Part shown: piece by piece, positions 3,475 to 48,700 of the stretch
Layout of the letters: every line of letters begins with the position of its first letter
Numbering within the stretch: position 1 is the first letter of the stretch
Source of the DNA: Lagopus muta
Lineage: Eukaryota; Chordata; Aves; Galliformes; Phasianidae
Assembly: GCF_023343835.1 (NCBI RefSeq)
Contig: NC_064437.1
Span: 1,126,001 to 1,190,000, forward strand
Length of the DNA stretch: 64,000 bases
Direction of reading: 5' to 3'
The notes under the pieces: model-generated
Told to the model about the DNA's origin: nothing
The model's input: the letters and a program-made list of their open reading frames with translations, nothing else
The model's database searches: none
Translations under genes and position numbers: made by a program

Positions 3475-9339
<5,865 letters not shown>

Positions 9340-9460
9340 GTGCTGCCTGCAACACACCGTGTGAGGCTTCTTCCAGCTTCAAAAAGATGCAGTCTCCATT
9401 TGCAAGCACACAGAAAGTGACATTGAAGGCATTTAGGACATTTATTTGTGAGTACTTAGT

Positions 9461-9540
9461 TCACAGAACTATGGAATGGTTTCAGTTGGAAGGGATGTTA
9501 CAGCCCTTCCAGTTCCAAACCCCTGCCTCAGGTACCCACA
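9461..9540 (-). repeat. CR1 fragment downstream of RPE65 stop
   Basis: The minus-oriented 3' end (cacagaactatggaatggtt, then ttggaagggatgttacagcc) lies 120 bases after the RPE65 stop, so it is probably inside its 3' UTR. Confidence 0.75.
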
Positions 9541-9662
9541 GGTGCCTCACTGCCCTAATTGAGACTGAACATTTCAGTTTGGTTGCTTATTTCTCAGAAT
9601 ACTCACCCAGACATTTCTCAGATGTACTCCACAGCCTAATTGCAAGATGTACAATGCAATAC

Positions 9663-9668
9663 AATAAA
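9663..9668 (+). other. RPE65: candidate RPE65 polyadenylation signal AATAAA
   Basis: AATAAA lies 324 bases after the stop. A second AATAAA occurs at 10053-10058. Either may be used. Confidence 0.5.
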
Positions 9669-10052
9669 CCACACGGTTTCTTTTACAAAATTAAATGTTG
9701 TAGATGCAACAGAGAGAAAGATGCACAAAATAGCACAGTGCAACCTCAGTCTCTCTACACATGGTAACATGTAGAAGACAATGTGCTGTTGCATCCTTTG
9801 AGAAGAGGTAATCTGTATCCTATGGGGGTGTTTTGGATTGAACTCACCTCCTGGTCACTGCACCAGCATCCTCAGAGCAAGCTGAGGGGAGCCTTTCCAC
9901 GGTGCTCTGGCAATCTCACTTTGCAGGCAGCATTCTGTGCTTTGCTAAATCTTACATGCATTAATCTTGTCTAGTTTTCAGCCACGTGTGTCCTCTCTCA
10001 TTTCTTTGCTCAAAGTGCTGTTTGAGTTCTGCATATTCTTAATATGAAAAAA

Positions 10053-10058
10053 AATAAA
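10053..10058 (+). other. RPE65: distal candidate RPE65 polyadenylation signal
   Basis: AATAAA sits in an A-rich tract about 190 bases before the opposing polyadenylation signal of the minus-strand gene. Use of this site would bring the two convergent 3' ends almost into contact. Confidence 0.4.
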
Positions 10059-10246
10059 AACAAAAAAATCAAGCAATTGTTACAGCTTAGGGTGAATGTG
10101 CTTTGTTAGAGTGCTACAAAATCAAAACTTAATCCCTTCTTTCCACAAAATGACTGTGCAGTACTAACAGACTATGTCCCAAAATACAAACTTCTTTGTA
10201 AACAGACTTGAAATCCAGGATTGTTTGTTTGCAGTGGTTTAACATT

Positions 10247-10252
10247 TTTATT
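10247..10252 (-). other. polyadenylation signal of MCCC2-like gene
   Basis: TTTATT on the plus strand is AATAAA on the minus strand. It lies 93 bases after the minus-strand stop codon, a normal spacing for a short 3' UTR. Confidence 0.65.
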
Positions 10253-10344
10253 CATGGTATCAAAGAATTAGAAAATCATTTACATTAAAGCTTTCCAATA
10301 TAAGGTGCTATCTTCAAAGGGTGATTACTGGAGAAGGGCTGCAT

Positions 10345-13300
10345 TTACATCCTTATCACAGGATACTGGTAAGGAGGTGGCACCTGGTACTTCTGCTGCT
10401 CTATGATCTGCAAGCACTGTGCAATTACCTGATTAAAACAAAAACAACCACAAACAAGATAATGAGCCTCTGAAACAGAAGTCAGGAAAGGTTACCAGCT
10501 AAGCAGTTATTCAATAATACATTTGTTCTTATTGCTGCAAATCAGTGTGCATTTAAAATGTACAGCTGCAGTTTGCAGAAACAGACATCAGTGTGATGTG
10601 TCACTGGGTCATAGGAAATGCAAAGAAAAAAGATGCCTGAAAGTTTCTTTCAGTTATTTCATAGCTACACGCCTAAGATTTCCAATATCAAGATGTTCTG
10701 CTCTTCTCCTTAAGTGTCCATCTTCTAATAGGTGATATTTCTTGGTGCCTCGTGAGAGCAGGGAAAGAATACACACAACTGGTTTTGGGCCTTGAACAAA
10801 ATCTCGGAGCGGTTTAACTTTCATCACCTGGCACACGCAGAGTTGGCTTTGCCAAAACCTTTTCTCTGGAAAAGCTTTTTGCTGAAAATTTAAGAGTTGG
10901 GATAAGGATTTTCCCAATTTCAGTGTGTATTTGACTGCTGGCACAGCAGCATGCGTTGTCCTGAAAAAAATATTGCTTTTAAAGGCATGCTAAATACAGG
11001 CACGTGCTGTCAGTTCAGACAAAGCTAAACTGAAACCCCATCTAGGAGCAAGAGCCAGGATAAAATAGCAAAACCACAGTGTTAAATAAATGACTGAACA
11101 ACTAAATTTGTGAACATGAATTGTGGCATGCTGGTGAAACCTGTACTGCCTGAAGAGAATCACAGCAATTCAGTCCAACTGTCACACTTTTCTTCACTCA
11201 AGGGGTTCCCAGAGAAAGGCAGGGTCTCAAGCACTAGGAAACGCTTCTCAGGGCAATTCCATTATCAAAGTCCCTATATACACTCCAGAAAATATTGAAC
11301 ATGGGTTGCACCATAAATATGTGCCCTAGTTAGAAATATGAATTGGTATCAGGGTGCATTTGTGATCGTTTGGGGTTGGGTTTTTTTTGTTTTGTTTTTT
11401 AAAGAAAGCCTTCAGAAGTGCAAAGAACATCCACACACTGCTAACAAACAGTGCAACACTGCAAAACAGCAGTGGTGGCTTTTAGAAAGAACATCTTGGA
11501 GAAGATGCCTACCAACTGAGAAAACATCCTGTAACAAAAGAACAAAAACAATGCAGGCAGTGAAGAGGAAACTTAAGAGAGCAAACATGGGTCATGTGCA
11601 AGACCATAAAAAGGAAGGAGTGGGAGACTGAACCAAACTGGAAAGTCAGTTGAGGTTCACTGAGGAAATCCTGTAGTCAGAATGCACCCAGAGTTCAACA
11701 GAAATTTTTAGAAGAACAAATAGGTCTATATCTTCAGATAGGGTAGAAACAGATGAGAATCCAAAGCTAAATACCAGGAAAAACAGAGTAAGAACTCAGA
11801 GAGCTGGTTCTGGAAATCAGCACGCTAGCTGACCGCAAGTGAACGAACCAGAGGCTTGCACATTCATCACAAGGTGAGATCTGGGGATGAAAATGTATTA
11901 CAGAACATACACTGGGAAAAAAACAAAGCCAGCTACCTTCCTGGTATCCTGGGGGAGAATTACACCATCATCCCAGAGTCTGGCAGAAGAGTAAAACGCA
12001 CTGCTCTCTTCCTCTAGCCTGGAGAAGAGAGAACATGAAACACACTTAGAAGCAGAAAAGTTTAACCAAAAGAGCAGCAGGCTGGTAAAACAAAGCTGAA
12101 GATAAAAAGGCATACGTTTCTATTTCAAGTGAATGTGCTGTTCTAGTGTTAAAATCCACTAGGATCCAGCAAACACATAACAGATCCGATCCTTCTGTAG
12201 CTCAAAGATGATCCTCTGCATTCAGAAGATCACTACAGGTTAATTTACAGCACTGACTTGTTTTGTGATTGCAGGATTTTCTAAGTAAAAGTTTTGCATT
12301 TCCCTGGCAAGATCCTAAGAGTAGACATAAAATTATACAGAATTCTAAAATAGTTTTCATCAAATCCAGGTCTGTTTCAGTTGTTTGGGATGTGTTGACC
12401 TGAAATATGAGCATAGGTAGGTATAAAAGTCAGCATAACTGCAGGATTTTACTGCTTAATGTCCTTACTTTTGTTTCAAACGTTTTAGCTCAGATTCATC
12501 TGTACAATCGCTGTCTCCAGCTTGTGGGACCATGGACAAATGTCTTGAATCCACAAGACCAACTCTTGCATTAGGCCATAAGAACAGAAAGTTTGGACTG
12601 AACGACCTCCCACACTGCAAAAATAAAGCAGTAAAAAAAATACAGTAGAAATTCACCGAATTTAATCACCAAAAAAAAAAAAAAGGGCCTACAGTGCCAC
12701 TATCAAGTTAGAGACAAAATGTAACAGTTACATTTGTAAAGCAATAGGGATGCAGATCCTTCCCCATTACAGCTACAGGTTCTCTATTAGTACAGATCAC
12801 AGAATGCTAGAATCCTTAGAGCTGGAAGGGACCTCTGAGGGCCATCAAGTCCAACTGCCCTGCAGTGCACAGGCACACCACAGCTAGGTCAGGATGCCCA
12901 GGGCCTGATCCAGCCTGGCCTTGAAAGCCTTCCAGGGACGGGGCATTAATCACATCTCCGGCAGCCTGTTCCAGTGCCTCACCACCTCACTGAAAAAGAT
13001 TTTTTCCTTATATCTAACCTAAATCCAACCTCCCTGAGCCTGAAGCCATTTCCCCTTGTCCTGTCACCACAGACCCCACCATCAGTTTGTCTCCTTCTTT
13101 CCTGTAGCTCCCCTTTAGATACTGACAGGCTACCATCAGGTCACCTCACAGCCTTCTGTTCTCCAGAGCCCTGCAGAAGTAACCACCACATCCCACTGCA
13201 TTCAATACTGGTGTTTATTTCACCCTGTCTAATCCCAGGTGAGCAAAGAGCCCAGTGCACCTCCTAGTGGCGTAAGTAGCACACACAGCAACACAACTGA

Positions 13301-16300
13301 AAAGATGCAGTCCTCGACCACTGAAAACAGGTGTGTGCAGAGCAAACAGCAGTGCTGAATCCTCAGTACTGACATTTTCAGACAATCTGATTTTCAGAAC
13401 CCGCTCCAGGTTCAGTGCAGATCAAATCTGCTGTAATCACGCCTTGTGATGCAGTTCTTATTTAAAATTAATTAGGATCACCAATCAAGATAAATGTCTG
13501 CACAGCAGCTGACGATGCTGAAAAGATGAAAGCGCCACGAGTGCTGGGCAAAGCGTTAAGTCGAGTGCCAACCCCCCTGACCTCCATGGCATCCTTACCA
13601 TCGCATAACTTTCGCTCCCAAAACAGCCACCAATCACTATGGTGATTTTGGGAACAGCTGCACAAGCGACAGCAGCCATCATGGAGGCCTGGGCTTTCAA
13701 CCTGTTGGCCTGAGCCTCTGCCTGAAATGAAAAGAAGCATTTTAGTGCTACGCTTTTTTAGATTCCTTCCACTTCCCCCAAACTTGCAACCTACTTCTAA
13801 AACAATTCTTTCTTCATGATGCCATGTGATCGTTTCTTCCAAAACAGCAAGGTGGGATCAGTGAACTAACCACCAGGACCCACAGTGCTACTTATTTTAC
13901 AGTGTAAATCAGCAGAACTGTTACAACCAGTGTGCAGAAACCTGCGATACAGAGCAACTCCGGGTCTCTCAGGCATCAGCAGAGCTCAGATACAACAGAA
14001 TTGCAGCAGGGTTTGTCTTAAGTGCTGGTGACAGCTGGGGGAATGGAGCTGCAAAAGTCTCTTAACATAGGCTCTACAAGGAGGCTTTCTAAAGCCCAGG
14101 ACACAGCATGCTGTACTTCAATGCCTTCACTTTAGAAAAGGGAAATATTATTTTCTGTGGATCACAGTGGTAGCAGAAGAACCAACAGGCTCAAGAACCA
14201 ACCATCTCAAAGGGAAGAGCACCACAAATTCTGAATGTCACAGCCTGCACTACCAGCCTGGCTGCAGACCTGCATAAAGGCCTGCCTAAAATCAAAATCA
14301 AGTGAGAAAGCAAAGGGAAGATTTAAGAAAGTTAATTATGAAACTTCTTGATTTGACCACCAAAAGTGGATTAAAAATTAGTTTTCCTCGTAATTAATAG
14401 TTTTCAAAATGCGTGTTAGTTAAAACAAGAGCCAGGCATTGCCTGAATGAAGCAGGGCAGATTGACAGGCCATACCTGAGAGATGCTGGTTGGCTCTGCT
14501 GCATGCGGAGCAGTATTTTGGAAGAAGAGGATGGGAATGCCCCGGTGACTGCACAGCTGTATGAAATGGCTGCCCTTGAGAGCAGCATCATGAGAAAGCT
14601 CCCCATTGTTAGCCACCACTCCCACCAAGTGCCTACAAAACAGACACATGAATGTTTTCCCCAGAAATGAAGAAAAGGTAGCATGCAGCGTCCTGCTGAG
14701 GGGTGGAAACATAAACGGATGGCGTGGATCTGCCTTTTTGCAAAGATCCAGACTCTAAAAGGATGCCATCACATGCACCATTTCATTCATGGAACCTTCT
14801 ATCCCTAACAAATGAGACTTTTTATAGCACTCCCTATGTACAAAGCACAGAAGCATTAACACTCACAAGAAGGCAGGTAAGGGTACAGGTGATCTGCCAC
14901 AGCTCACACTGCAAGATGGCAATCTAGGTGCCAGGATCCTGGGTGCCCTCTGTTTCCTCTAACATATATCCCAACAGTCAAGATGAAAAGTTCATATTTT
15001 TTTGCCAAAAAACTCCCTAAAGTACATTTTACTACTTTTTTTTTTTTAATTAAATATTTGGCTGGAATGTTGTATGTTTTATGAGTGTGCTGTAAGACTG
15101 AGTCTGCCCTGAACTATGCTAGGTTCTACAGTACAGATACTGTTCCACTATTCCCTCTCCATCCTGCAGGAGATGGGATAACTTTGGGCTCAGTCTAGGA
15201 AGGAACACTTACAGATGCTGTTTCTTACTTCTCAGAGAATCTGCTGAAATGTCAAAGTTCCAGCTGTCCAGTGACTTAAGTGCCCAAATAAATAATTTCA
15301 CAAAGTCATGAAACGATTCATTTGTAATCCCTCTGCTGCAATCAGCCTGAGACACAGCGAATGTGGGGCCCAAAGACAAAGGATGAGGCTTTCTGGAAGT
15401 ACTTATCATCAATTCCTCATTGAGTCAGAACTCCTTAAACATTGTTCTGGGAATATTGTAGATCCTGATAGTGGTACGAAAGCTATTTGGACATACACAT
15501 CCATGCATAGTGATGGTGAATCTCATAGCCTTACCCTTCCACGTGGCCAAATCCTGTTACTAATGTTGTTCCATAGTCAGCCTTGAACTCCTGGAACCTG
15601 CTTCCATCCAGCAGGCGGCTCAGAACCTGCAAAGAAACACACAGTCTTGCCTATAGAAATCTAGGTGAAAACAGACAGTCCTGGTGAAAGATATGCTCTG
15701 TTCAAGCAGTGGAGAGACCTCTATTACACAAATAGTCAAACGAAATGATCACAGCGCTCCTTTCATGTCTTGTGCTCCAATAGATACTCCATATGCACAA
15801 AGCATCAAATCTGTGTTTCTGTTTGATTACCAACCATATCTCCTGAGACACAGTTCAACCCCACAATTATTTCAAAGTTACAGACCACAGCTGCTCCTGT
15901 GCATAAAAGCCTTGCTAAAACAGCAGCACATACAGTTGCAGTTTGCCTGCCTGAGGACACCCAGCAGCATAGTGCTCACACTTCTGAATGCAGATTTAAG
16001 AGCTGCTAGTCAAAGCTACAAAGCTACACTGCTGATTACAGCCAATCCCCTTAACTCCAGGAGCTTACCACTGGTAAAGATAAGGGGCTCACATCCTCAG
16101 AGAGCCCAAGCCTCACCTAGAACCACACAATAACCACAGTGCTGTGCAGTTCTGCATGTCTCTGCAGAGGTGGTTACCCCAACCTCAAACAGATCTAGCT
16201 TCAATTTCTTTGTTTTTGCATTTTTCATTAGGCATTTGATTTACACATAGAGCCTAGACCCCTTAAAAAAAGAAACCAACAACACAGACATGGGAGACAG

Positions 16301-19300
16301 GACACAACAGGACACAAGCCCCTTTCTAAAGGGATGCATGTTCTAAAGCAGCCAACAGAGCACAGAAACAGATGGGTATCAGCTGGTGTGATCTGTAATC
16401 ATCTTGTCTCTAGCAGGCTTTCTGTTAAAACATTTTCAACAACTACAGAATCAGTGCAATTCTGTTTTGCAGCAGACTCAAGACTGGGTGGCAACTGATT
16501 AGGCAACTATATGAAATCTCTCAGGTACTTTGTGATTTCCCTATGGGGGAAGAACTCCTGATTGCCTATCAGTCTGAAGATAACAGCTAGAGCAGACCAA
16601 AAGAATGAAGGAATAATGGGATCTGCCAGCCTACCAATTTTACAGGAAGAGTACAGCCATAATCTCGTGGTGCCAGCCCCAAGAGCTCATCAGAGCTATA
16701 GAGAGGATGGTCATGCTCCACGAGCTCTTCTGGCACGGGCTCATAATTCAACGTTGAGATGATATTTCGAACACACTCGTAGGCTTCCTTTTCTGAAGAT
16801 GCAAAATGGTCACTGCAGCCACTGACTCTAAGAGAGGAAGCAACATTAATTAGTAGTAATGAAATCTGAATTCTGATAGAAAACCCAAACTAAAGGAAGA
16901 ACCTTCATCTCTACGTGAATATTTGACATCTCTGACAACATCGTGCACTTTTGCTCCTGTATGAATGAGCTCAAAACATTACAGTCAGTGGGATTTCTGT
17001 GCAAACCAACCCAAAAATCAAGTTACGCCCCCACATGTACAACTGAATATCACTAACTTTTGTCATAATTCACCTATCATTTTAACATCTTTTTCAAGTC
17101 CTTGAGAACCACAGCAAGTTCAGTCACTGGAGACAGCTTCAGTCATGTCAATTTGGGATGGAATGGTACTTCCTTAAAGCTAAGTGTGCTCAGCTCTCTA
17201 CAGTTTTCATGCATACCTAGAGTGAAGTGTAGCTCCTCCTAGGTCCTCTGGAGACACGTATTCTCCAGTAGCAGCTCTGACCAGAGGTGGGCCAGCAAGG
17301 AACAGAGTTCCAATTTTATCTACAATCACCGCTTCTTCTGCCATGGTTGGGACATAGGCACCTCCTGCTACACAGGAGCCACACACCACTGCCACCTGGG
17401 GGATACAGAACCAAGACCAAACCAACATGCTAAAGAGAGCAGAGTGGAAGGCCAAGTCATTACCTTTACTTCAGAAATGTTCAAGAGACTGAACCACAGC
17501 CTGCAAAGCCATGAACTAAAGGTACAAATACCAGCATGGACGTGGCTGCTCTTGGCAACACAGAGCTCAATGTTTACTCTGAAACCACCTGATGATTTGA
17601 TGCTTCCCATGCAAACCAGTCAGTAAGCACTCAGAACATTCTTAATGCTGAAGTGTTCTATTATGTGAGATGCTATTTGCATCACTCTGCCCCGCAAATA
17701 GAAAAGGTGAGCTTTCAAAAATGTATTGCACATTTTAGAGCTGCTCCTAGAAGCTGTATTAGAAGAGAATTTTACTACACATACTTGCATTCAAAATGAC
17801 ACCATACCTGAGGGATTTTCATAGCAGATATTATTGCTTCATTGTAAAAAATTCTTCCACCATGCAGCTTGTCAGGGAACAGCTCTGACTGATGTTAGAG
17901 AAGAGACACAGTGAATTTCAGTATCAGCTACAAAAGACAACACTTCCTCTTCGTTCATTCACAAAAGCATTGTAACAATTTTGAGAAGGCCACCACTAAC
18001 AGTCACACCTGAAAGTTTCATGCACAGCATTCTCTGCTGCATTTGTTGTCCCTACACGTCGTGCAGTTCCACAAAAATACCCCTGGCCTCTGTGTTTCAA
18101 AAGCACAGGAAAGTTTCTTGTGTTTTGTGAAACCAATTTATTCCACAAAAGCTTCAACTGTAACCATGGGGAAGGGTAAGCTCATGTTCACACTTAAGCT
18201 GTGAAATGACTTCAGGAGTTTCCCTTTTTGCATAGTTCTTGGTTCAGTTCAGATAAAACCTTTTTCTACCCATTTGCTTTCAGTCTGGAGAGGGAACAAC
18301 CAGTCTGTGATAACATGACCTCTGTGCATGGGGAAGCAACCTGTTCAAGTCTTCAAGGCCACTATAGCAAGAATTCTAAATATTCTATTTTCAGAAGCTA
18401 TGGAGGTTTGCACATCACTATCACAGACTTTGTAACAGAACACAGTAACTTCAAAGATTCTGAAGTTGAAAACAGGTATTTCAAACAACGTTTCTGAGTT
18501 ATTAAGGGCATCAAAGCATTTTGGTGCACTGAGAAGCAGCCATGCTGCCTGCTTGGTCACCAATTCCTCCCAACACTGATATTAAAGCTGCCACATTTTG
18601 ACACTAGATGCAAAATTAGCCAAAGCCATCACTGCTGTTATGTGTCTTGAAATCACCTCCTGGGCTCAGATTTTCAGACAAAGCTCAACACAGTGCAAGC
18701 CAGCCCACCAAGAAAACACAACAGAAATCTCAGATTTCTACAGAATCAATATGATGGAGACAAGAAGTGAGAATATTCCTTCGCAAAGTGGTTCTGGAAT
18801 TACCTGCAGTGGTAGGAACGCTCCCCCACTGTCAACAAGGTACACAGACACCAGTCTGTTCTGCATGGCTATTTCCTGAGCTCTCAGCTGTTTCTTCACT
18901 CCTATTGGATAAATAGTTCCTCCTTTTACAGTTGCATCATTTGCTATGAAGACACACCAAATCCCACAGATCTTTCCAATTCCTACAAGAGGCAACACAG
19001 AAATGTATCAGACTCTGAGACACTGTAAATGAAACGAGGAGGCCAAGTTATAACTAGGGCATTGTTTTGTTAACACTGTTTCAGGAAGCTGCAAATTAAC
19101 TTGCAAATACCAAACCTAGAAGAAATCTATAGCTCTTCTCCGGAATAAGAAACAGGGGGATAATGACATACAGACAACAAACAAACAAATACATCTAAAT
19201 TACACAAGATAGAACTTAAAATACAGCTTTCACCTGGTGACAGTATAAGAGGAAAAAAAAAACAGGTGACTTCCAGCTCTTGGACTGAGTTAACAGGGAA

Positions 19301-21828
19301 GGGAATTAAAAACTACTGATAGAAAACTGAAGAACATAAGGCTGTGGTTAAGGAAAGGCAGGATTTCACAATCCACTCTTCTAGTCGCTTTGTAAACTGG
19401 AACTGCTCCTCAAAGAGCAATGAACTTGAGAAACCATTACAAAACAAATGCCACAGGGGCTGTGCCATGCAGTAACTTGGTCACCTCTCATTGCACAGAC
19501 ATCAGTGTATGTGACACACCATTCTAAATCTTTTAGACGACTTTTCAGCCTGCAGACTGCAACCACTGCACACTGCCTACAGCCACTGACAACACATTCA
19601 AACATCACCTCTCAAATTACTTTGGTTCAAAACCCTCCTCCTTCCCAAGCTGCATCTCCAGCATGGGCTTATCCCAACAATACCCTCACCCCACATGCAT
19701 CTCGAGATCTAATACGAAACGTAATTAAAGATTCGAACAATTAAGCAAATGAACTTCATGAATTTCCCATTACATTTCCTAGCAATTACCAGTGAGGCAT
19801 CCAGCAGCAGGGACGTCACCATATGGCAGACTGAGGCCTGCAAGGGGGGACAGCTCGAGGAAAGACTCCTCATCCAGAAGCAGCTTCAGGCGCTCCCGAA
19901 CAAACAGCTTCTTGTTTCTCTGGGTGTGACGCAGGACGGCGTTCTCTCCCCCTCCTTTACTGACCACCTGCAGCAACTCTGAGTGTCTGGTTTGAAAAGA
20001 AAGTTCCAGTGAATGAAACCTTCCCTTACACGTTAGCTTTCCATAGGTTTTGCACAGTACTTCAATGTATTGCACAGGTTTCATCCCAGTGACATGGGAA
20101 CAAAGATGAACTCACACGACCTGGTAATGACAGAGAAGAACTGGCCCACAGGCCACACTATTCATAGCTATATATATTCACTAGATACAACAAAAAGCAG
20201 AGATATGTTATTTCAAGCAAATAGTTCAGTTTCATTCTTCAGAAGTCACCTCTCCAAGCCTAGCAGCAACCCACCCCAAAAAAGTGGAGTAATACAAATG
20301 TTCTATTTGGAGCTTATGATCAGCTAGTAGACATCATTAAGCCCACTCCCCTCCCAGCAGTTGCCTTGTGCCTCCAACACATTACTTCACAATACATGTG
20401 ACCATACTTGGCTCCTAGCAGCACACCCATGAATGGAGCACAGTGAAGGGTCTGACACCAGCCACCAAAGCACACTTTGAGAGATGCTGCCTTACAGCAG
20501 CAACCTGAGCCCCTAAGCTTGCAGATAGGAGTAAAGCTACCACAATGTGCCAGTCCTAATTCAGCACAGACATCGACCCCAGGTTCCAACTGCTCCAGGG
20601 CACAATCCAGCCGAGGGTTTCCTCTGCTGCTCCCCCTCAGCAAGTGCTGAAAGTTTACCTGGCAGGCCTAATGAGCAGCACAGAGAATGTGCTTTAATAA
20701 CACTGAATATTGCACTGTCACTAGGATCATCAAACAGAGAAACTCATTACCATTCATTACTGGAGAACATAAATTGCAGAACGGAATAAAACTGGAAACA
20801 AACGTGGTACTTCAAATAACTTTGATCTGAAACAAACCAGGTTGTGTATTTAAAGTAAAACATTCTTTTTCACCAAGACGCATCATCTGTAAACAAAAAC
20901 ACCTCCTGACACAACTACTTACCAACCACTCTGTGTATGACTCCAGCACCTTACTAAGGGTTCCTGCAGACTGCAGAGGTTGAAAAACCTCAGGAAAAAA
21001 AAAGGGCAAGGGTTTTTAGCAATATTGCAAACGCCACCACAGGAGGGCACAGTGTGTTTTCCATAGCCGTGCTTCCAGCTCAAGCACCATCCCTCTGAAC
21101 AAAGGCCTTTGAATTCTGCCACCAGATCCACAAGAATATACATTTTCCTGTTTTGCTAACAAATCGCAATTCTTCAAATGATTAAGTTTTCACTCAAAAT
21201 TAACTGTGAAACTTACCTCATGAAGGCCCAGAAAATAATTCTTGGCAATACATGCAGAACAATGTCATAGGATAACATTGAGATACAATGCGAACCCAGA
21301 TTTGGGCACTGCAGTCAAGAGGAACTGCCCAGGAAGCAGCACAAAGGAAAACAGCCAGGGCTTCAAAGCGGGCAGGAGAAAAAACAACCAACAGGTTGTT
21401 TGCAGCTTCAGTTTTTAATTAGCAATCTAGGTTAAAAGCTCCTAAAAGCACCCGTGCGTAACTCTCCCATCACCTCACAGGTACCAACCATGCTGAAAAC
21501 ATCACAAAAGCTACTAGTACCTTTTAATGACAGCCTCACTGTTCCTGACGTTCTCCTCAAACACGTGTCGGTGCACAGGCAGGACGCGTCCATCCAGCAG
21601 TGGGTACATCTGAGCACAACGCCTGCGTTTGGCTTTGCTGCCTCCCAAGCAGCCGGGCAGCGCGCCGCGTGTCCCATTCTGTGCTATCCGTGCCCACTGC
21701 CTATCGCTGCTGGAGCCCAAGCACATCCTTTTGAAGGCATGAGTTAGGGGTGGGAGTCTCGGCAGCAGTAATGATGCTGGGTGAGGGGAGTGCTTGCAAA
21801 CAGAGCACAGGGCGACCTTGTTCCACAT
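10345..21828 (-). CDS. MCCC2-like acyl-CoA carboxyltransferase paralogue (12 coding exons)
   Basis: Divergent relative of the beta subunit of methylcrotonoyl-CoA carboxylase, a mitochondrial biotin-dependent carboxyltransferase of leucine breakdown. Coding exons in transcript order: 21828-21521, 19986-19790, 18982-18804, 17888-17808, 17395-17217, 16827-16635, 15626-15535, 14632-14476, 13721-13599, 12614-12469, 12018-11937, 10428-10345. All are GT-AG with matching phases and no stop, giving 606 codons (572 if the second Met at 21726 is used; human MCCC2 has 563). The N-terminus is Arg/Ser-rich, like a transit peptide. Conserved: [41 protein letters not shown] and [13 protein letters not shown] with the first oxyanion-hole glycines (about 266-267). 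Diverged: NITGFMVG is replaced by [16 protein letters not shown] by GSESYAM (497-503), and GGEQAA is missing. The end is VIRM instead of FRM. It is an intact, selected gene; catalytic activity is doubtful. Confidence 0.92.
12663..12685. repeat. poly-A tract in MCCC2-like intron
   Basis: A simple A run just upstream (in transcript terms) of the exon at 12614-12469. It reads as a T tract on the coding strand, but it is about 50 bases from the acceptor, so a role in splicing is uncertain. Confidence 0.7.
12798..13190 (-). repeat. CR1 LINE, about 390 bases, minus orientation
   Basis: One of the longest CR1 pieces here. It begins cacagaatgctagaatcctt and ggaagggacctctgagggcc, and continues through ggccttgaaagccttccagg and cagcctgttccagtgcctca to ccccttgtcctgtcaccaca. 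It lies in the intron between MCCC2-like exons 13599-13721 and 12469-12614, in the same orientation as the gene. Confidence 0.92.
20320..21450. other. MCCC2-like first coding intron (3' part)
   Basis: This is intronic between coding exons 21521-21828 and 19790-19986. Apart from a decoy exon-like segment around 20926-20992 (see rejected items), nothing coding or recognisably repetitive was seen. Confidence 0.5.
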
Positions 21829-22639
21829 GACCCTGGGAATCGAAGCGCAATGAAAGGGTGCTCACTTCCAGCACGACCATTCAGATCCCCCATGTGGGAA
21901 TGGAACCTTGTTTCTGCATTTGATACTGAAAAGAGCAACTGGTTTGAAGAAGTAGAACATAATGCATTTGTATTCTGTAACTTATCCTTAGAAACAGTTG
22001 ATCTAAGAAGTAAAAGTACTGCATATGTTAGCGGCATGTTTTAAAAACATTATTACTGAATTATGTGATTAATTCTTCCTTTTAAATGTTCCAAACAATG
22101 CAAGTATAGGGTTTAGGGATTAGAAAACATATTGTAGCGTTGTTCTGTTAGGATAAGAAAATCCCAGCAAAAGAAAAACAGATTTAGCAAACATCAAAGC
22201 AGCCAGGGCCTCTACACAAGGCCGAACTGCCTCACTCTGTGAGAAGGTTGGGACTGACAGCCAGGCACCGAGATACTTCCCTGTCTTTCTCGCAAGCTTA
22301 TCTGTGTGGAAAGGACAAGCAGATATTTGCAAAGTAGTGATCAAGTGTGCAATAAGTTAATTAATTAACTACTGATTTGTGCTTAGGCAGCAAAAATTTG
22401 TATTTGTCCAGTGTTTGCATGTTTAGTGAAGCGTCGAGAAGGTTGTGAACCTGCAGTACTCAGCCAGTGAGGAAGCAGGGGAGAAAGAGATCAGCGTCAG
22501 GCGATAGGGAATCAAGGGTGTAACGCCGTTTTCTGGGCACTCTCCTGCTTGCAGGAGGCCCACCATCGCAACTGCGAATAAAATCTGCTTGATCAGAGAT
22601 ACCGTCCTAGAAAATTATTTAGGTGTTTCCACCCGAACT

Positions 22640-23150
22640 CCGTGCACGCAACAGAGGCCCCAGGTTCGCTGTAACCCGGCATCGCCCCGCGGGCGGGCAG
22701 GGCAGGAGGGCCGGCAGGGACCGCAGCGCGGCCTTCCGCCCAGCAGCGGCAGGGCCCAGGGTACCGGGGGTACCGAGGGTTCCTGGGGGCGAGCGGGGCC
22801 CACCGGGCCCGGCGCCGCGCTGCGGGTCGCGGATCGGCCCGGGCCCTGCACGCCCTGCGCGCCCGCCTCCTCCCGCCTCAACCCCGCACCCCGCCGAGCC
22901 TTACTGGCAGCCAACGCCGCGCCGACCGCTCCGGGCCCGCCCCGAGGGCGGCTCCGCCTCCCGAGGCCTCTGCCCGGGCCCGCCTCCGCCGCAGGCCTCG
23001 CACAGCCCGAAGGCCCCTCCGGCCCGCGGCCCTGCCCGGCCCCGGCTTCCCCGCCTCGGTCCCTCGCGGCCCCGCACGCCGCCTGCCGCCCCCCTGAAGG
23101 CCCAGCTCTCCGAGTGCGAACGTCGCGGCGGCACGGCGCGGCACATGGCT
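22640..23150 (-). promoter_or_regulatory. CpG island, likely promoter of MCCC2-like gene
   Basis: About 500 bases of very GC- and CpG-rich sequence sit 0.8-1.3 kb upstream of the first coding exon of the minus-strand gene. A good minus-strand donor (GTAAGG, plus strand ttac at 22901-22904) would end a 5' exon at 22905. The acceptor ttcccag at 21833-21839 would place only GGTC before the first ATG. Both fit a non-coding first exon inside the island. Open frames across the island on either strand are composition artefacts. Confidence 0.65.
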
Positions 23151-23299
23151 GCACACACACGCACTGCACGTATTTGGTGTTTCAGATCATACGGCGCAGC
23201 CCCAGGAGCACCGCGCTATAGAGCCTCACCCGCCGTTAAGCACGCAAAGCTGGAGTTTCAGGGCCGCAGTCCACCGTGTCCGCTCGCTCCATCACTGGG

Positions 23300-25660
23300 T
23301 GCTGCAGCACTTGGCCCAGGGGTGCCGGCGCTCCCTGTGCTCTGTGTCACAGAAATACCCCGGGAATTTGCTTCCCTTCCACGCCCCACGCTGTCCCCGG
23401 GCTCTGACAGCCCCTCTGCCCTCCTTAGTCCTGATGTCGCCTGGAGCTTGCTGCTCGTTGCTGTCGGCAGCCTTGTTAACACGTGCCGGAGCTCCTCCGC
23501 CATCCTTGTTAATTAGGCTCCGCAGAGGTAATTAAGCAATGACTAATACAGCAGCGAACGCAAGTATCCAGCATAAGCATGAGAGAGATTTTGCAGGTAG
23601 ATACATTGGATATGTAATTAAAAAATCTTGATGATAATAATCAAGACTGGATGCGCTATAGTAGTATAAAACGTTCTATTTTTTTCTCTTATGCACAAAA
23701 CAGGTAGGATCACCTTTGATGTTCTTTCCCTTTGTGCTGAGAATGGGGTTGCTGGAAGCAGCATCCCGCTGCCCTGAGGAGCTGCAGCTCAGCAGGCAGG
23801 GTTTGGGAGGATCCATCTGGTGGGGTGCCCTCTGCAGCCTGGAATGGCTGCATGGCACTGCCAAGGGATGTGTGGGGCTGCAGGCACTTGTGGGCACTGC
23901 ACAGCAAGAAGAGGTGGTGCCTGAACTGGGAATGCAGCCCTTGTTTGCACGTTCCTAAAATTCTCAGTAATACTGGACCAGACAAACTGAGGTGAGCAGT
24001 GGGTGTATGTTACTGATGCTCATGGAATCATCCAGGAAGGATCCCCAACCCAGCCCCAGCCCACCCCCTGTTCCCACTGCCCACGTCCTTCAGTGCCACA
24101 TCCCCACGGCTCTGAACACCCCCAGGGACGGTGACCCCCTCGCTCCCTGGGCAGCTGTGCCAATGAAACTGGTGAATGAATAATCCCACTCAGAAAGTGT
24201 GCCACAAGCACTGGTGCAGCCACAGAGGGGTTCCTGGCACAGCCCATGAGGAACATCAGCAGCCTGTTACACCATCCAGGCCGATACGGGGCATTCCTTG
24301 TTCTGGGGTTTAGAATTGGAACTGGAATTGATTATTCCAGTTCATTCAGTCTCTACTTCTGTGGTGCAATCTCTCCCACTGATTTGAGCAACTAGTAGAG
24401 AGCTGAAGATGGGAGGCAGAAGGCACTTAGCAGCTTTCTGTGGATCGTTTTGATGTCCTGGGGCACCTCCTGTGAACGCTGGAGCTCTCTGTGGAGCAGG
24501 TGGAGACAGGGAAAGAAAGTGGTGACAGAAATGTGTGTAAAGCAGGAAATACAGCAGAGGTCAGAGCTGCTGAGATGTGTGGATGGCAGTGATGGTGCTC
24601 AGCTTTTTGAAGAAGGGAGTGCTGATGAAATGCAGTGAAATGCTCAAATATGCATTTAATGTGAGACTTAGGGTTCTTTTTTTTCTTGAGTTGACCCATA
24701 TATAATTTCCCTGCATATTTTCAGTATTCTGTTCTGTGAATGCATTAGAGAGACGACTATTCAATTATAATCTTGCTTCTTATTTCATTTTCCATAGCTG
24801 TTAGACTTTTGTGAGATCCCTTATCTCTGAAATGCCAGCGATTTCATTTTAATTTGGGGATATATATATATTTTTAGGAATGCCTTTTGCAGTTGTAATG
24901 AGTTATCTTGTGATACAGGTTTCCCAGCATCTGTGTTCACAGTCAGAAGATGCTGTATGTAATACAGGTTGCTTTACTCAGGTATGGAAGGGACTAAGCA
25001 TTCTCACGCAGGCTGAACGCTGCTTGATAAAGCAAACCTTTCTCTTTGCTGCATTTGAGCCTTGGTGTGTGCTTGTGTGTAAGTTTATCAGGAAGATTCA
25101 GCACCTGTCACTCTTTTTTTGTAGCAAGAGGCAGCCTGGTGTGAAGGCAAATCCTGTAATGGGATGCTAATTTATCTTTGGTAGTCCTCACGTGGAGCAC
25201 CCTGTGTTTAATGGTCACCGAAGGTAAATGGAGTGAGGTGGTTAAAATAGCTGTTCTGGATGGGTGCAGCCTTGTGCAAGTGTTTGCAGTCGTTACTTTA
25301 AGCGCTTATTTTGGAGACTTTTGAGTGCTGAGAATTCAGAATATATAGGGCAGCATTTAGGAAAAATGTTAGCGTGGTTGCCTGCTTTAACGTGAACTGC
25401 AGCTGTGCCAAGGAAGGAACGTGCCATTTAAGGAGCACTAAAGATCTGAGTGAAGTTTTGGCTCCACTTTATTTAGAAACTTGCTGGAGTGCACCGGATG
25501 CCGGGGGAAACCAGAACACACTTCTTAGATTGTCAGACCAAAGGCAGGAAGGTTCCCACAGGGCCCTGCTCCTGATGCAGCTTCTGTTTCTTATTTAGGT
25601 TTTGTTTCTTAATACCAAAAAGCTTGTAGTGGCATTCTGACAGCTGTGGCCTGGAAATTT
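23300..25660. other. intergenic, no gene recognised
   Basis: Apart from the CR1 fragment at 24022-24165, I see no exon, RNA gene or other repeat. The open frames are short and overlap on both strands. Confidence 0.5.
24022..24165 (-). repeat. CR1 fragment, minus orientation
   Basis: Reads gaatcatccaggaaggatcc, then the shared cactgcccacgtccttcagtgccacatccc-type segment and acacccccagggac, as in the other minus copies. Confidence 0.85.
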
Positions 25661-38956: not shown

Positions 38957-39169
38957 TGCCCATTGTTTGTTAGTGACTGCATCCCTTTGTGGCATAGTTG
39001 TCCTCGAGGAGTGTTTTCAGCCACTCCCCATTGGACCCGTCCTACACAGAGCCACAGGACTCTTCGGAAAGGACCCACAAGGGCCATCCTGGCTCCACGT
39101 GGGACCACCTAAAATGCAAACGCTCTGTCTGAGGCAATGTTCTTCATCCTAAGTCCGACAGCAGCGTGG

Positions 39170-39758
39170 CGCGGACCTTCGCGGTGCCCCATCAGTAGCC
39201 GCAAGGCGCAAACGCTGCAAAGCAGATGACGGCAGTGGAACGAGCTCGTTCTTACGGGGCACGCACGGGGACGCGCCCGGACTGGGGGCAGAGCGGCACC
39301 CACATCCCCGCGAGCCCGCAGCCCCGCTCTGAGCTTCGGAGGGCAGCGGGGCTGGGAGGGACTGCCGGTGCGAGGAGGACAAAGCAGCACGGGGACACCG
39401 GAGCGAGACCGGGACGCAGGGGGTGCGGTGACCGCGTCCGGCCCGCGGGGGTTACGCGCCCCAGCACGGTGCCGCGTTTCAGAGCGTCGCGGAACCGCTC
39501 GGGTCGGCGGGGCCCTCCAGAGGCCACGCGGTCCTCGGCCGCCCCGGGGCCGCCGCACCCCCAGCGCCCGCAGCTCGAGCGGCGCGGGGCCGGGCCGGGC
39601 GGGGCGGCGGTGCGGGGCCGGGGAGGGGCGGGGGAGCGGCGCCACGTGATGCGCTTCCCCGCTCCTTAAAGCCGCCCGCCGCGCCCGCCCCGCCACAATC
39701 ACGGCCGCACGGCCCCGCCGGCAATCAGTGCCGCGCCCGGCCCGGCCCCGCCGCCACC
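39170..39758 (+). promoter_or_regulatory. WLS: WLS CpG-island promoter and 5' UTR
   Basis: Very CpG-rich sequence runs from about 39170 through exon 1 and into intron 1 (to about 40700). It has GC boxes (ggggcggcgg, gggaggggcggggg) near 39600-39632 and a palindromic CACGTG E-box at 39643-39648. The start codon has an ideal Kozak context, gccgccaccATGG. There is no canonical TATA box, as expected for a housekeeping CpG promoter; ttaaag at 39664 is the only weak candidate. Confidence 0.8.
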
Positions 39759-42700
39759 ATGGCCGGGGCCATCATCGAGAACATGAGCACCCGAAAGCTG
39801 TGCATCGTCGGCGGGATCCTGCTGGTGTTCCAAGTGATCGCCTTTCTGGTGGGAGGTCTGATCGGTGAGTGCCGCCGGGGCAAACTTTCTCCCCCCGCCG
39901 CGGTGCCGGTGCTCGTTCCGGTGTCAGCGCCGCGCCTCCATGAGCTCATTAGCGCGGCATTGTCGTTAAGCAAACAGAGCTCCGCGGGCCCCTTTGTGCG
40001 TGCCGGGCTGGAGAAGGGGCAGAGAAAAGTTTGCCCGGCCTGCTCGCGGCGTGCCTGAAGAAAGGCAGGGGAGCCGTCAGCATGGCGACCGGTGCCGCGG
40101 GGCCCTGGAGCTGAACGTACCATCGAACCTTTTTTTTTTTTTTTTTTTTTTTTTCTCTTTATTTTTTTTTCACTTTTTTTTTTTTTTTTTTTTTTATTGT
40201 TAATTCTGCTTTCCCTCCTTCCTTACCGCCTCCCCATCTCCGGGCCGCGGGAGGAGGGAGCCTTCCTGCCTGCGGCAGCACTCGCCAGGCGTAAAGCGAT
40301 GCTAGCAGTCATAAGGAAACCGGGGAGGGGGGATGGAGAGGGGGCCGCCTGTCCCGGGGCTGAACACCGAACCCGGAGCGCGCAGCGCGACGTCGGATAG
40401 CGCTGGGGAATGGAGGGAGAAAGATGGAGGAGGGCGGGCGGGGGGCAGAGCCGGGACTGGCGGTGGTACTGGAAGGCACAGCGGCGGGGATGGGGTGGGG
40501 TGGGATGGGGTGGCTCGGCTCCGGGCGGGGATGGCGCCGCCCCCCGCGGTTCGCTCTTGGGGTTCCCTCCGCCCGGCTCCCCCCTGCGCTGCGGCCCGCG
40601 GGGTCCAGCAGCCCGGCTGCGTCCCCTGGCCGCCTCTGCGCTCCGCGGCTGAGACGCGTCGTCCTTTTTGTTGAGGGGAGCGTGGCTGGAACGTTCTTGC
40701 AGCGATCTTCATTTCAGAGGCGCAGAAGAAAGAGCTGCAGCCGGCGTTCCGAAGGCAGGTCCATTGTTCTGCGTTCCTATCCCTGCGAACTGCTGCTCTG
40801 TGGGAGCTGGAGAAATTCTGCTAAGTGTAATGCGCAAAACTTTGCTTTCATCCTTCTGGTGCTCGATCACAAAGCAGCCCCTGGCAACATCGGGTTGGAA
40901 CCTGAGTTTTCTGCTCCTGTAGGCCCAAACCCGCTCGACACCAGGACTGGGTTTTCTACCCAGTTTCTTCTGAAGGAGCTGGTTTGGATGGAGCTGGTTC
41001 AGATGCAGGTTACTGAACCCGATGCTGATTCACTGGATGCGTTTTCTTGCCCCATGTTGTGCAGAGAAGCTGTGCTCCATGGTCATGAGGATGTCTTTGT
41101 TCCTAGAAGGGTTTTGCAGCAGAGCTCTCCAAGTTCATAAAGCATGAGCTGTGTGTACAGAGCAAACCTACTGAAGGATCTGTTTCTGTCTTCACCTGGG
41201 AACAGGTGTGATAAACAGATGTATTCGTGTTTAGGATTGCATGGGCTACACAGGCCTCTTTCTTTCATCTTGAAATTCCTTTGAACCCGAATGGAGCTTG
41301 GATCTGCCATACATACACCATACACGCCTCCTGCATTAGGGCCCAGCCCAGTGCTGGGCTCTGGGACCTGCAGGCAGTGTGGCAGTGGCTCAGGGCTCAA
41401 TGCCTCTTTTAGACCTAGGGTGACGTTTGTTGATCATACGGGGATGCCTTCTGCCTGCTGGCAGGTCCTAGGGGGTGCTATGGGCAGACCTTCCATGGCT
41501 GGAAAACCCCACTTTGAGTCTTCAGGCAGATCAAACTGCGTTATTGCCTCACCCAGACTGGGTCGGTGGCTGTTCTGCAAAGTGCCGAGCCCTCCAGGAT
41601 GGTGCTGGGACAGCTGCTGGTAGCCTCAGGGCAGGGCTGTGAGTAATGCTGCTCCTGTAGTGCATGGGGGGATGAGAGCTGAGGTGCCACTGAAATAGTG
41701 ACCCGGTCTGGTTTGATCCAGCACGCCAAACAGACAACAAGAATCCGGTTATTTTAGTTTGTTCAGGTCTAGACAAACCAAAATATGTACACAACGGGAG
41801 TGCAGCTACAAAGCGAGCTCTGCCGTTCCTCTAGCAGGGAGTCAGGTCATGTTTCAAAACAATGACTAAGTGCTCTATTTTAACAGATTATTTTGCAAGT
41901 AAAAAAATACACAAATGCGACACATTCGTACCTGATACGGCCAGAAAGCTTCGTTCCTCTGGAACTGTGTTTTCTGCCAGTGCTGGTCCTTGATGGAGTT
42001 TGTGAACAACAAACTATTTATGCGAGCTTTATTAAACTCGAACGTATTTCTGCTGGCACTTTTGTCCAGGTGCAGAACTTCAATCAGCATCCCCGTGGGC
42101 TTTGGTTAGAAATGTGCATTGGCAAAACATGGGATGAAGGCATACAGGAGTCAGAGCTTGCAGAGCAGAGCTCCAGCAGCATCTATGGGAGCTCAGCGAA
42201 GCTGAGGCATGAGAAGTGCCGTAAGGGGTGATTTTATAGGGCTGTTTCTTTGCTGCTCTCTGGGGCAGAAGCTGCCCCCAAAGCCCTCCTGGAGCAGCTG
42301 CTCAGTAACACGCTTGGAGGCGCTTCAGATGGCCTCAGGACGGACAGGATTCCCTCTGTCCTGCTCCAGAGCTGGCTTTGTGTACCAGCACTCAGTAGTG
42401 GATACAGCAGCTGACCATACATTCTGCACACGTAACTGGTTGGAGAAGTGAAGGCGTTTATTTCCTCGCTGGGATGAAGGCATGCATTTGGGAGCGAGCG
42501 GCTCTGCTGCTTCCTTCTCTTGCTTTAAGACCGAGGGGGGGAAAAAAACGGAGTTGTTTTGACTGGAGCCAATAAAACTGCTGCTCGTGTGTCTTGCCCA
42601 GAGAGATAATGAGTCATGAGTGCAAATGGCTGAGCAGCTATCAACAATCCCGGCTCATTATCTACATGTCGGGTTTGGCTCCCAAGCAGTGCCTTTCCAG

Positions 42701-45700: not shown

Positions 45701-48700
45701 CTTCTGAGTCTCAGATGAATCACAGCTCATGATTCAACACGAGGCTGAGCAGATTGGGATCATTCAAAGCTGAAAGCGATTCAGCTTCTGATTTCCTGTG
45801 TCCTTTTTAGGGGCCACTTTGTCCTGCGGACAGAGTTACACCAGCTTGAGCATACAAACTTCCTCATAGGCAATGGCTTGGAGGGTTTCTTGGCACCCAT
45901 GGAGTGGCCCCAGCCCTTGGAGCCGGGATGTCCTTGGGGCTCCCGTGGGTCCCAGCAGCCCCACAGGGCGGAGGCTGCCTCCAGCCCTGCAGCTGGGGAA
46001 GGGCCTGACTTCTCATCCCAGCCAGCACAGCAGGAGCACGGCTGGGGCTTATCTGCTGTTGAGCAAAAAGTGCCATGGCACTATTTCTGGGCAGGCATAT
46101 ATCACATAATACGTCAGTCAGAGCCACCCCACCTCGCAGCCCACGGATGGAGCAGGCGGAAGGCAGCCTGCTTGGCACCGCTGCCGGCTGCAATCCCTTG
46201 ATGCTCGCTTTGTTTTGCATAGCACTTTGTAATGCTGTTAGTTGACTTGGCTGCAGTTTCCCAAAGTGTTTTTTTTTTTCCACTGGGTTCAACACTTGCT
46301 TGAATGTAATGGGAATGGAGCCAGACAAGTAACCCAAGCCAAGTGCCGACGTTTGTTTGGTGCGTGGCTCCCGACAAGAAGAATGTATAGGAATTGTCTC
46401 TTGCTCCTCAAAGCTGTAACTTTGGCAGGGAGATACTTATGTTAGCATGCCAGGGCTTTAAAATCGTAATCAGCCCGTGATGAAAACGTGTATTTATGGC
46501 TGTAATGAGCTGCATCAAAGTGGGAAACGTGAGCCTTTCCTGCAGAAGTAACTGTATCTCTTAATTCAGAAATGCCTACTTCTAAATCACATAGATCTTA
46601 CGAGGTTGAGAAGCTCTGAGAGGGCTTGGCCTGACTATCTGGCTTATTTCTCAGAGCATTCTTCGTTCTTGCTCACAGCTGCAGTTTTAGGCACTGCTAT
46701 TGGGTTCTGCATTGAGTCATGGTAGGAGAACATTGCACCGTATGACTTTTGTGTTTAATGCACTGTTGGTCCACCTTGAGTACATTCAGTACATTCTGTA
46801 ACCCTGGACTTGCAGTGAAGCTATTTATTTTTTTATTTATTTATTGAATGCTCAATATATTTTCTTTTACTGCTTCATTCTGGCATCTGAGGGGTGCTGG
46901 TGCATTGGCTTGTTCCATTTGTCTAATGGAAGGGCTTGAGTTGGTCCATTGGGTGCCATTACCTGATGGGGGGTGTTTTTGTTGGGCTAGAGTCTGCACG
47001 GAAGTCCTGGGCTGTGTGTCAGAGGGATGATGGTCACAGCATGGAAGTAGTTCTGTAGGAGCCCATGGGCTGGCTGGCTGATTGCAGACCATTCCTGGCC
47101 TCCTTGGCCCCCTTCTTCCCTGCAGGTGTTGACATCCAGTTGTCTGTTGCACTGTGTGCTCCTCCTGCTTTAATTCACGGTGTAGGAATGTTTCAGTGCT
47201 CCTCGCTCTTCATTGGAGCACTCTCACATTATTGAATTTGCACCTGACTTTCTAACTTCTCTCTGTTTTCCTTTAAAAAGGGATAGAACAGGTTTGGTCA
47301 GACTCAGAAGTTCAAAGAAATAAATACAATTCTTTAACAGCTTAAGAAGAGCTTACCTGTTCTTTCTGCTTTCCAAAGCCTGTGAACCTGGAAGAAGTCA
47401 GTGAGAGCATGTGATGATGCTTCATGAATAATACTTTGGAAAATAAGACAGCCCTGTTTCAGTGGCAGCAGAATGCATTGCTTTGTGTTGCCTCTTGTGA
47501 CCAAGGGCTGTGAGGGGCAGGAGAACTGTCACTGAGCTCTGACTGCTGGCACCCCCAAGTTGCATCGGCTGCAGTCAGAGTTCACCAGTTCTGCAGTGCA
47601 TGCAGGTAGCACTGAAATGCTGATTTACCAAAGGGCGACAGAAGCAAGGCTGAACTGCCTTCACATAAAGGCTTTGAGGGGCAGAACTGTGTTAGAAAAC
47701 GCATTTCAGTCTTCAAAAGCCTTTTCTTAGGGAGATGTGAAGGTGTTTGTGCTGGCATTTGGTAGTGGAGGCCTGGTTGATGGCTGAATGCATTTCTCTT
47801 CTTCTTTTATCCCTGTTTGCACTCTGCATTTCCAACCATTTCCTCCTGGATGTAAAGCCAGAGCAGGCTGATTGCCCACAGCTTAGCTATCTGATGTGAG
47901 ATGTTGGACATCTCCCTGATACAAGGTGGATGGGTGCCTGCACCCCTGCTGGTGGGGCAGGGCAGCTCTTGGAGCAGCCTCAGAGGATTCCCAGTGCTTG
48001 GGCTAAATTCTGTTTTGATAACGCTGCAGAGTCAGTAATACACCTGCAGGCATAATAAGGCTAACTAACTGTGGGATCAAGGAGCTGTGAAGGAGGATCA
48101 CTCCATGCATTTGTTTTGAGTTGCCTTCAAATAGCTGAAAAGGGAGCTGCGTGTTTTGGTGGGGAAACCACTGCACGAGATGCTGATTCTAAAAGCACGA
48201 TTCTTTCACTTGCAGCTCCCAGCCCCACTACAGCTGTTCCTTACATGTCAGTGAAGTGCATTGATGTAAGAAAAAACCACCACAAGACCAAGTGGCTGAT
48301 GCCCTGGGGATCCAACCCCTGCGAGAAGCTCAAGGACTTTGATGAGGCGGTCAGCAGGCAGATCGAGGCCAATGACATCGTGTTTGCTGTGCACATCCCT
48401 CTCCCCAACAAGGAGATGAGCCCCTGGTTCCAGTTCATGCTCTTCATCATGCAGCTAGACATCGCCTTCAAGATGGACAATGACCTGAGTAAGTTGCACC
48501 CTGCCCTTTATTACTTACTGTGCATAGGCTTTGCAGCATCAGTTTCATGTTGCCTTTATGCAGTGCCATATGCTAATTGCTGAGTGCCCAAACTCAGGGA
48601 GACGATGCAGAAAGGTGGAGGTTAGCAATGAGATGGTACAGTGTGGGCCCTTCCATAACCCAGGTGCTCAGGGCCCCATCCATGGCTTGGGCACCTCCAG

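Follow-up and report, generated by a model that had tools for sequence, protein, structure and literature searches.

What does a second, strongly diverged relative of the beta subunit of methylcrotonoyl-CoA carboxylase (MCC) do in a bird genome that also carries the ordinary MCCC2 gene? The question is raised by a gene, here called MCCC2-like, in a stretch of 64,000 nucleotides from Lagopus muta (NC_064437.1, positions 1,126,001 to 1,190,000 of the forward strand; hereafter the window), which corresponds to positions 1126001-1190000 of contig C8 in the genome that was searched (1.03 Gb in 165 contigs). Analysis of the sequence points to an ancient, acyl-CoA-binding relative of MCC beta that would no longer take part in biotin-dependent carboxylation and would act either as a biotin-independent enzyme or as a non-catalytic subunit, and that is likely the gene named MCCC2L in chicken; we put the probability of this reading at about 0.55.

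Humans have few carboxyltransferase-domain proteins, and these have been studied in depth (MCCC2, PCCB, ACACA and ACACB); the MCCC2-like protein is apparently missing from the human set. A fifth intact member in which the biotin loops are replaced would amount to a natural loss-of-cofactor experiment. The loop replacement would also caution against annotating the MCCC2-like protein as MCC, and position 191 would offer a concrete hint at the substrate.

The MCCC2-like gene and the ordinary MCCC2

The gene is encoded on the minus strand, from 21828 to 10345. Its 12 rebuilt coding exons join into 1821 bases, or 606 codons, which run from an ATG at 21828 to a stop codon ending at 10345 with no internal stops; all 11 introns have GT-AG ends, and the phases are continuous throughout. 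The preliminary description of this locus, made from the sequence alone, had claimed the same exon set, an uninterrupted frame and two conserved blocks of 24 and 11 residues, all of which were recovered. It had also described an end-to-end alignment with MCC beta; the homology stands, but the structure match begins only at residue 88, and ten columns of the MCCC2 alignment are absent from the MCCC2-like protein near residue 539.

The Pfam domain Carboxyl_trans (PF01039), which spans both the N and the C halves of the protein, matches residues 128-596 (E 6.8e-105). The closest solved structure is the mitochondrial MCC beta chain 8j4z (E 4.7e-154, residues 88-582), which we take to be human; this match scores 517 bits, compared with 354 for the beta chain of geranyl-CoA carboxylase (GCC; 5ikl) and 140 for the mitochondrial beta chain of propionyl-CoA carboxylase (PCC; 7ybu). 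In NCBIfam, all five listed models remain below their cut-offs, the best being mmdA with 231 bits against a cut-off of 999. The N-terminal helix region (residues 88-115) is alignable to MCC beta, and a few joined bacterial tblastn matches begin as early as residue 16.

A search of the genome with Carboxyl_trans produced 27 exon matches in five regions. The ordinary MCCC2 is located on contig C59; its rebuilt part extends from exon 2 through the stop codon (520 residues) and is 86% identical to the 8j4z chain over 499 positions (8j4z residues 40-542 being used). Contig C12 presumably carries a PCCB-like gene and C20 and C23 acetyl-CoA carboxylases, labels that we assign from motifs. Over 506 positions, the MCCC2-like protein shows 50% identity to the bird MCCC2; its identity to the 8j4z chain is 51%. 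A genome search with its residues 169-606 gave 14 matches, on C8 and C59 only, with no third copy or pseudogene at that sensitivity.

Identity with the ordinary MCCC2 is rejected, given that the ordinary gene sits on C59, and so is a processed pseudogene, given that 11 introns are kept; the preliminary description had dismissed both options. The likeness to MCCC2 comprises the top structural match, the same domain, identity at half of the aligned positions and three central introns common in position and phase. The differences are the separate locus, eight of the 11 introns unshared with the 15 rebuilt introns of MCCC2, the change of Phe191 to Gly and the replacement of three loops in the C domain.

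C-domain loops, position 191 and the proposed function

As near-invariant we took the 174 columns in which identity reaches at least 95% across 79 MCC-beta sequences, namely 77 bacterial ones (80 fetched, 3 dropped), the bird MCCC2 and the 8j4z chain. The MCCC2-like protein is changed at 40 of these columns, the family members at 6 at most (median 1). By domain, the changes amount to 12/96 columns in the N domain, which is largely kept, and 28/78 in the C domain. Of the 29 columns that fall in three loops of the latter (8j4z positions 401-426, 444-449 and 470-482), 24 are changed, compared with 16/145 elsewhere in the protein. None of the 23 near-invariant columns between and after these loops (positions 427-443, 450-469 and 483-563) is changed, which speaks against simple decay of this domain. 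The 15 consecutive near-invariant columns with the most changes (12) fall within positions 401-426, a density matched in 3 of 20,000 shuffles; the count of neighbouring changed columns was matched in 2 of 20,000.

In the first loop, GFMVG gives way to a ten-residue stretch, with a five-residue insertion. The first half of this loop is encoded by the last ~48 bases (by arithmetic) of exon 8 (14476..14632, minus strand, as for all exons of this gene) and the second half by exon 9 (13599..13721), which also includes the second loop (GAGNYGM changed to GSESYAM), whereas the third loop (VMGGEQA changed to LVDSRHL) belongs to exon 10 (12469..12614). The preliminary description had correctly noted blocks that differ from MCCC2 and had missed their concentration in the glycine-rich C-domain loops, which makes it unlikely that the protein functions as the beta subunit of MCC.

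A hint at the substrate comes from position 191 in the light of published work. Where MCC beta has Phe191, GCC has Gly, a residue that separates the two enzymes; the F191G variant of MCC is essentially inactive on 3-methylcrotonyl-CoA but accepts geranyl-CoA, with an activity about five times lower than that of wild-type GCC (PMC4673880, partial text). For annotation, the same work names three marks of MCC: Phe at position 191, an insertion of three residues just ahead of it, and the N-terminal helix, which in MCC beta is extended, about 30 residues. In the MCCC2-like protein, position 191 is Gly (Gly238, in exon 4, 17808..17888, with its codon at 17859..17861 by arithmetic from the exon set), as opposed to Phe in 77/77 bacterial rows, the bird MCCC2 and the 8j4z chain; the published Phe191 was equated with column 191 on the agreement of residue and number. 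Judged by the published marks, the MCCC2-like protein is neither a clean MCC nor a clean GCC. It resembles GCC beta in this Gly, but differs in the lower score (354 as against 517 bits), in the MCC-type insertion that it keeps (judged by alignment with the bird and 8j4z MCCC2) and in the replaced loops, and the Gly shared with GCC is probably convergent.

We propose that the protein, whose leader of 87 residues contains 15 Lys/Arg and 2 Asp/Glu, would go to mitochondria, fold as an MCC-type beta subunit and bind a CoA thioester that is probably bulkier than 3-methylcrotonyl-CoA, the CoA-thioester half being mostly kept and the biotin half rebuilt. Because the loops presumed to hold biotin are gone, a carboxyl group would no longer be transferred from biotin, and the resulting role could be that of a biotin-independent acyl-CoA enzyme or of a non-catalytic (pseudoenzyme) subunit. 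Purely as a precedent, the MdcD-MdcE component of malonate decarboxylase has a carboxyltransferase-like fold and acts on CoA thioesters independently of biotin (PMC5534430, partial text); by membership it is not a relative, given that the NCBIfam model malonate_beta reaches only 26 bits with the MCCC2-like protein against a cut-off of 278. A broader and more tentative proposal is that an ancient mitochondrial protein of the carboxyltransferase fold has been retained in birds, perhaps also in reptiles and other vertebrates, and that this protein has discarded its biotin site and might carry out a biotin-independent reaction on bulky acyl-CoAs, or sense them; a carboxylase would then have taken on a different role within the vertebrates.

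The same observations bear on the alternative that the protein is still the beta subunit of a biotin-dependent acyl-CoA carboxylase, with a new, larger (perhaps isoprenoid or branched) substrate and compensating changes in the loops. Both the Gly at the residue that sets the preference of MCC and GCC and the conservation of the C domain outside the loops are compatible with such an enzyme, but the loops that are replaced, with the five-residue insertion, are near-invariant in MCC, and the fetched PCCB-like and acetyl-CoA carboxylase-like exons of the same genome show GFxxG and/or GG[AS] motifs (GFLPG and GGAYDV on C12, GFSGG and GGSWAV on C23, GGSWVV on C20). We consider this alternative unlikely.

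In a special case of the preferred reading, the protein would have no catalytic role of its own but would assemble with MCC beta into hexamers, or with MCC alpha, and so modulate the ordinary MCC. This idea agrees with the MCC-type character of the closest match and with the lack of any second MCCC1 that could be singled out among 22 matches to PF02786 (ATP-grasp) in seven regions; no private alpha subunit is evident in the genome searches with PF02786 and PF02785, which are insensitive and miss exons. This insensitivity counts against the argument, given that PF02785 finds three regions only and that the regions were not identified individually, and in this specific form the proposal seems quite unlikely. 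A lone weak PF02786 match with two stops lies apart from the other regions, on contig C2 (108022011-108022142, minus strand), and may be a remnant or else belong to an exon of some further gene.

Several points weigh against the loss of biotin-dependent carboxylation and the change of substrate. The same 79 sequences served to define the near-invariant columns, which makes the low counts of the family members partly a product of the definition, and short patterns taken from the MCCC2-like protein were used to retrieve the bacterial rows, which biases the set towards that protein. The three loops were delimited after the data had been seen, and for this reason the shuffle test, which is independent of loop limits, counts for more. 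No GFxxG motif is found in the fetched exons of C20, and one GFxxG match (GFWWG) is a chance hit. Main-chain contacts in the loops could outlast side-chain changes. The MCC-type insertion before position 191 is kept, with no gap relative to the bird or the 8j4z MCCC2, which leaves room for a pocket unlike that of GCC. Mitochondrial targeting is a prediction from the basic leader. In the structures of MCC and PCC these loops would line the biotin site; the text cited here does not name the residues concerned, and the partial text of PMC11735997 contains nothing on them.

Age, ancestry and constraint

The median identity to the 77 bacterial MCC-beta sequences is 67.5% for the bird MCCC2 and 47.8% for the MCCC2-like protein, and the end branch of the latter measures 4.77 changes per column, compared with 0.17 for the median end branch; the bootstrap of the underlying tree was close to convergence but short of it. 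In this tree, the bird and 8j4z MCCC2 pair with each other at 100/100, with the MCCC2-like protein outside. The trees neither establish nor reject a clade of the MCCC2-like protein with the vertebrate MCCC2: the free tree is better by 9.5 log units (approximately unbiased (AU) test, p 0.08), and on the N domain alone, where bacterial rows are the closest in branch length, the same constraint costs 15.0 log units (AU p 0.19). The MCCC2-like protein shares rare residues with the vertebrate MCCC2 in 1/8 cases at a frequency of 0.02 or less, compared with 55/1005 for pooled single bacterial sequences; the corresponding figures are 1/14 and 157/2056 at 0.05, 4/33 and 314/3773 at 0.1, and 12/53 and 793/6285 at 0.2 or less. 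Such sharing would favour kinship with the vertebrate MCCC2 at best slightly.

The introns are more informative about ancestry. Three of the 11 coincide with MCCC2 introns in alignment column and phase (15 MCCC2 introns compared), namely those flanking exon 5 (17217..17395, with an 11-residue conserved block) and exon 6 (16635..16827), and under a simple model of random placement three or more matches arise in about 1 in 10,000 draws. The simplest reading is that the MCCC2-like gene arose by duplication after these introns existed and long before birds, and the earlier claim of an old duplicate is supported by the small number of shared introns (only three of 11) and by the grouping of the bird and 8j4z MCCC2 without the MCCC2-like protein. 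Transfer from bacteria, or bacterial contamination, is unlikely because introns are present and three of them are placed exactly as in MCCC2.

Intactness limits how recently constraint can have ended. In a Poisson calculation that assumes 0.08 indels per substitution, and that is not a dN/dS test, the probability that the frame and splice sites stay intact without selection is about 0.02 once neutral divergence reaches 2%, and about 5e-5 at 5%. The preliminary description regarded the gene as still selected; this is compatible with the data, intactness being its sole support. The very long end branch would also be expected if function were being lost through recently relaxed selection, with the loops as the first casualties. 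Nevertheless, the 606 codons and 11 introns show no stop, frameshift or splice-dinucleotide lesion, the changes form clusters instead of being scattered, and the remaining C domain is mostly conserved, all of which makes ongoing loss very unlikely.

Remaining gene features, genomic context and the chicken gene

Exon 1 (21521..21828), which starts with the ATG, encodes the leader (residues 1-87) and the beginning of the N-terminal helix region, and exon 3 (18804..18982) contains the conserved 24-residue block. The rest of the rebuilt frame consists of exon 2 (19790..19986), exon 7 (15535..15626), exon 11 (11937..12018, with another 11-residue stretch) and exon 12 with the stop codon (10345..10428). 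Within intron 9, the stretch 12800-13150 resembles, by eye, the 3' end of a bird CR1-type LINE. A poly(A) signal, AATAAA, lies on the minus strand 92 bases past the stop (10247..10252).

Upstream of the gene there is a CpG island at 22600..23400 (GC 0.65-0.84 and CpG observed/expected 0.74-1.03 in 200-base steps), inside which a narrow donor pattern finds one candidate, at 23229. Immediately before the ATG, an acceptor-like stretch on the minus strand (21833..21855; 15 of 20 bases are pyrimidines, followed by CAG) would have an exon begin at 21832, with four bases between the exon start and the ATG counted from there; other acceptor-like sites of similar pyrimidine content lie within the 500 bases upstream of it. 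Given the island upstream and the acceptor-like site right before the ATG, the island likely includes the promoter and a non-coding first exon of the MCCC2-like gene. An Rfam search of the window gave no match, and a scan of it for bacterial-type promoters nothing relevant.

The gene order in the window is RPE65, the MCCC2-like gene and Wntless (WLS). In chicken, MCCC2L is listed together with RPE65, WLS and DEPDC1 in the region of chromosome 8 between 28.6 and 30.1 Mb (PMC8469556, partial text), which implies that a gene of that name is already annotated there. The MCCC2-like gene is probably this MCCC2L, given the name and the common region with RPE65 and WLS; the list is alphabetical and contains names only, so that adjacency is not given and the identification draws on name and region. 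In a search of 5.39 million open-licence papers, the symbol MCCC2L was found only in this paper, 'MCCC2-like' in none, and neither a functional description of MCCC2L nor the loop replacement nor the Gly at position 191 was found. The preliminary description, which had called the gene little described in vertebrates, had missed the chicken listing. Entries named 'methylcrotonoyl-CoA carboxylase beta chain, mitochondrial-like' in alligator (PMC4727388, partial text) and turkey (PMC8424120, partial text) may or may not correspond to the MCCC2-like gene.

The frame that ends at 9339 on the plus strand encodes the C-terminus of RPE65, in agreement with the convergent arrangement described earlier, and ~1 kb separates the two stop codons (9339-10345). 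Plus-strand AATAAA motifs occur at 9663 and 10053, and the 3' end of RPE65 may approach or overlap that of the MCCC2-like gene. On the other side, a WLS exon lies inside the plus-strand frame 48065-48583, and in the region 39100-40800, 5' of WLS, there are GC-rich frames on the plus strand, one of which, over 19 residues, resembles the start of WLS; the promoter of WLS and its first exon probably lie in this region.

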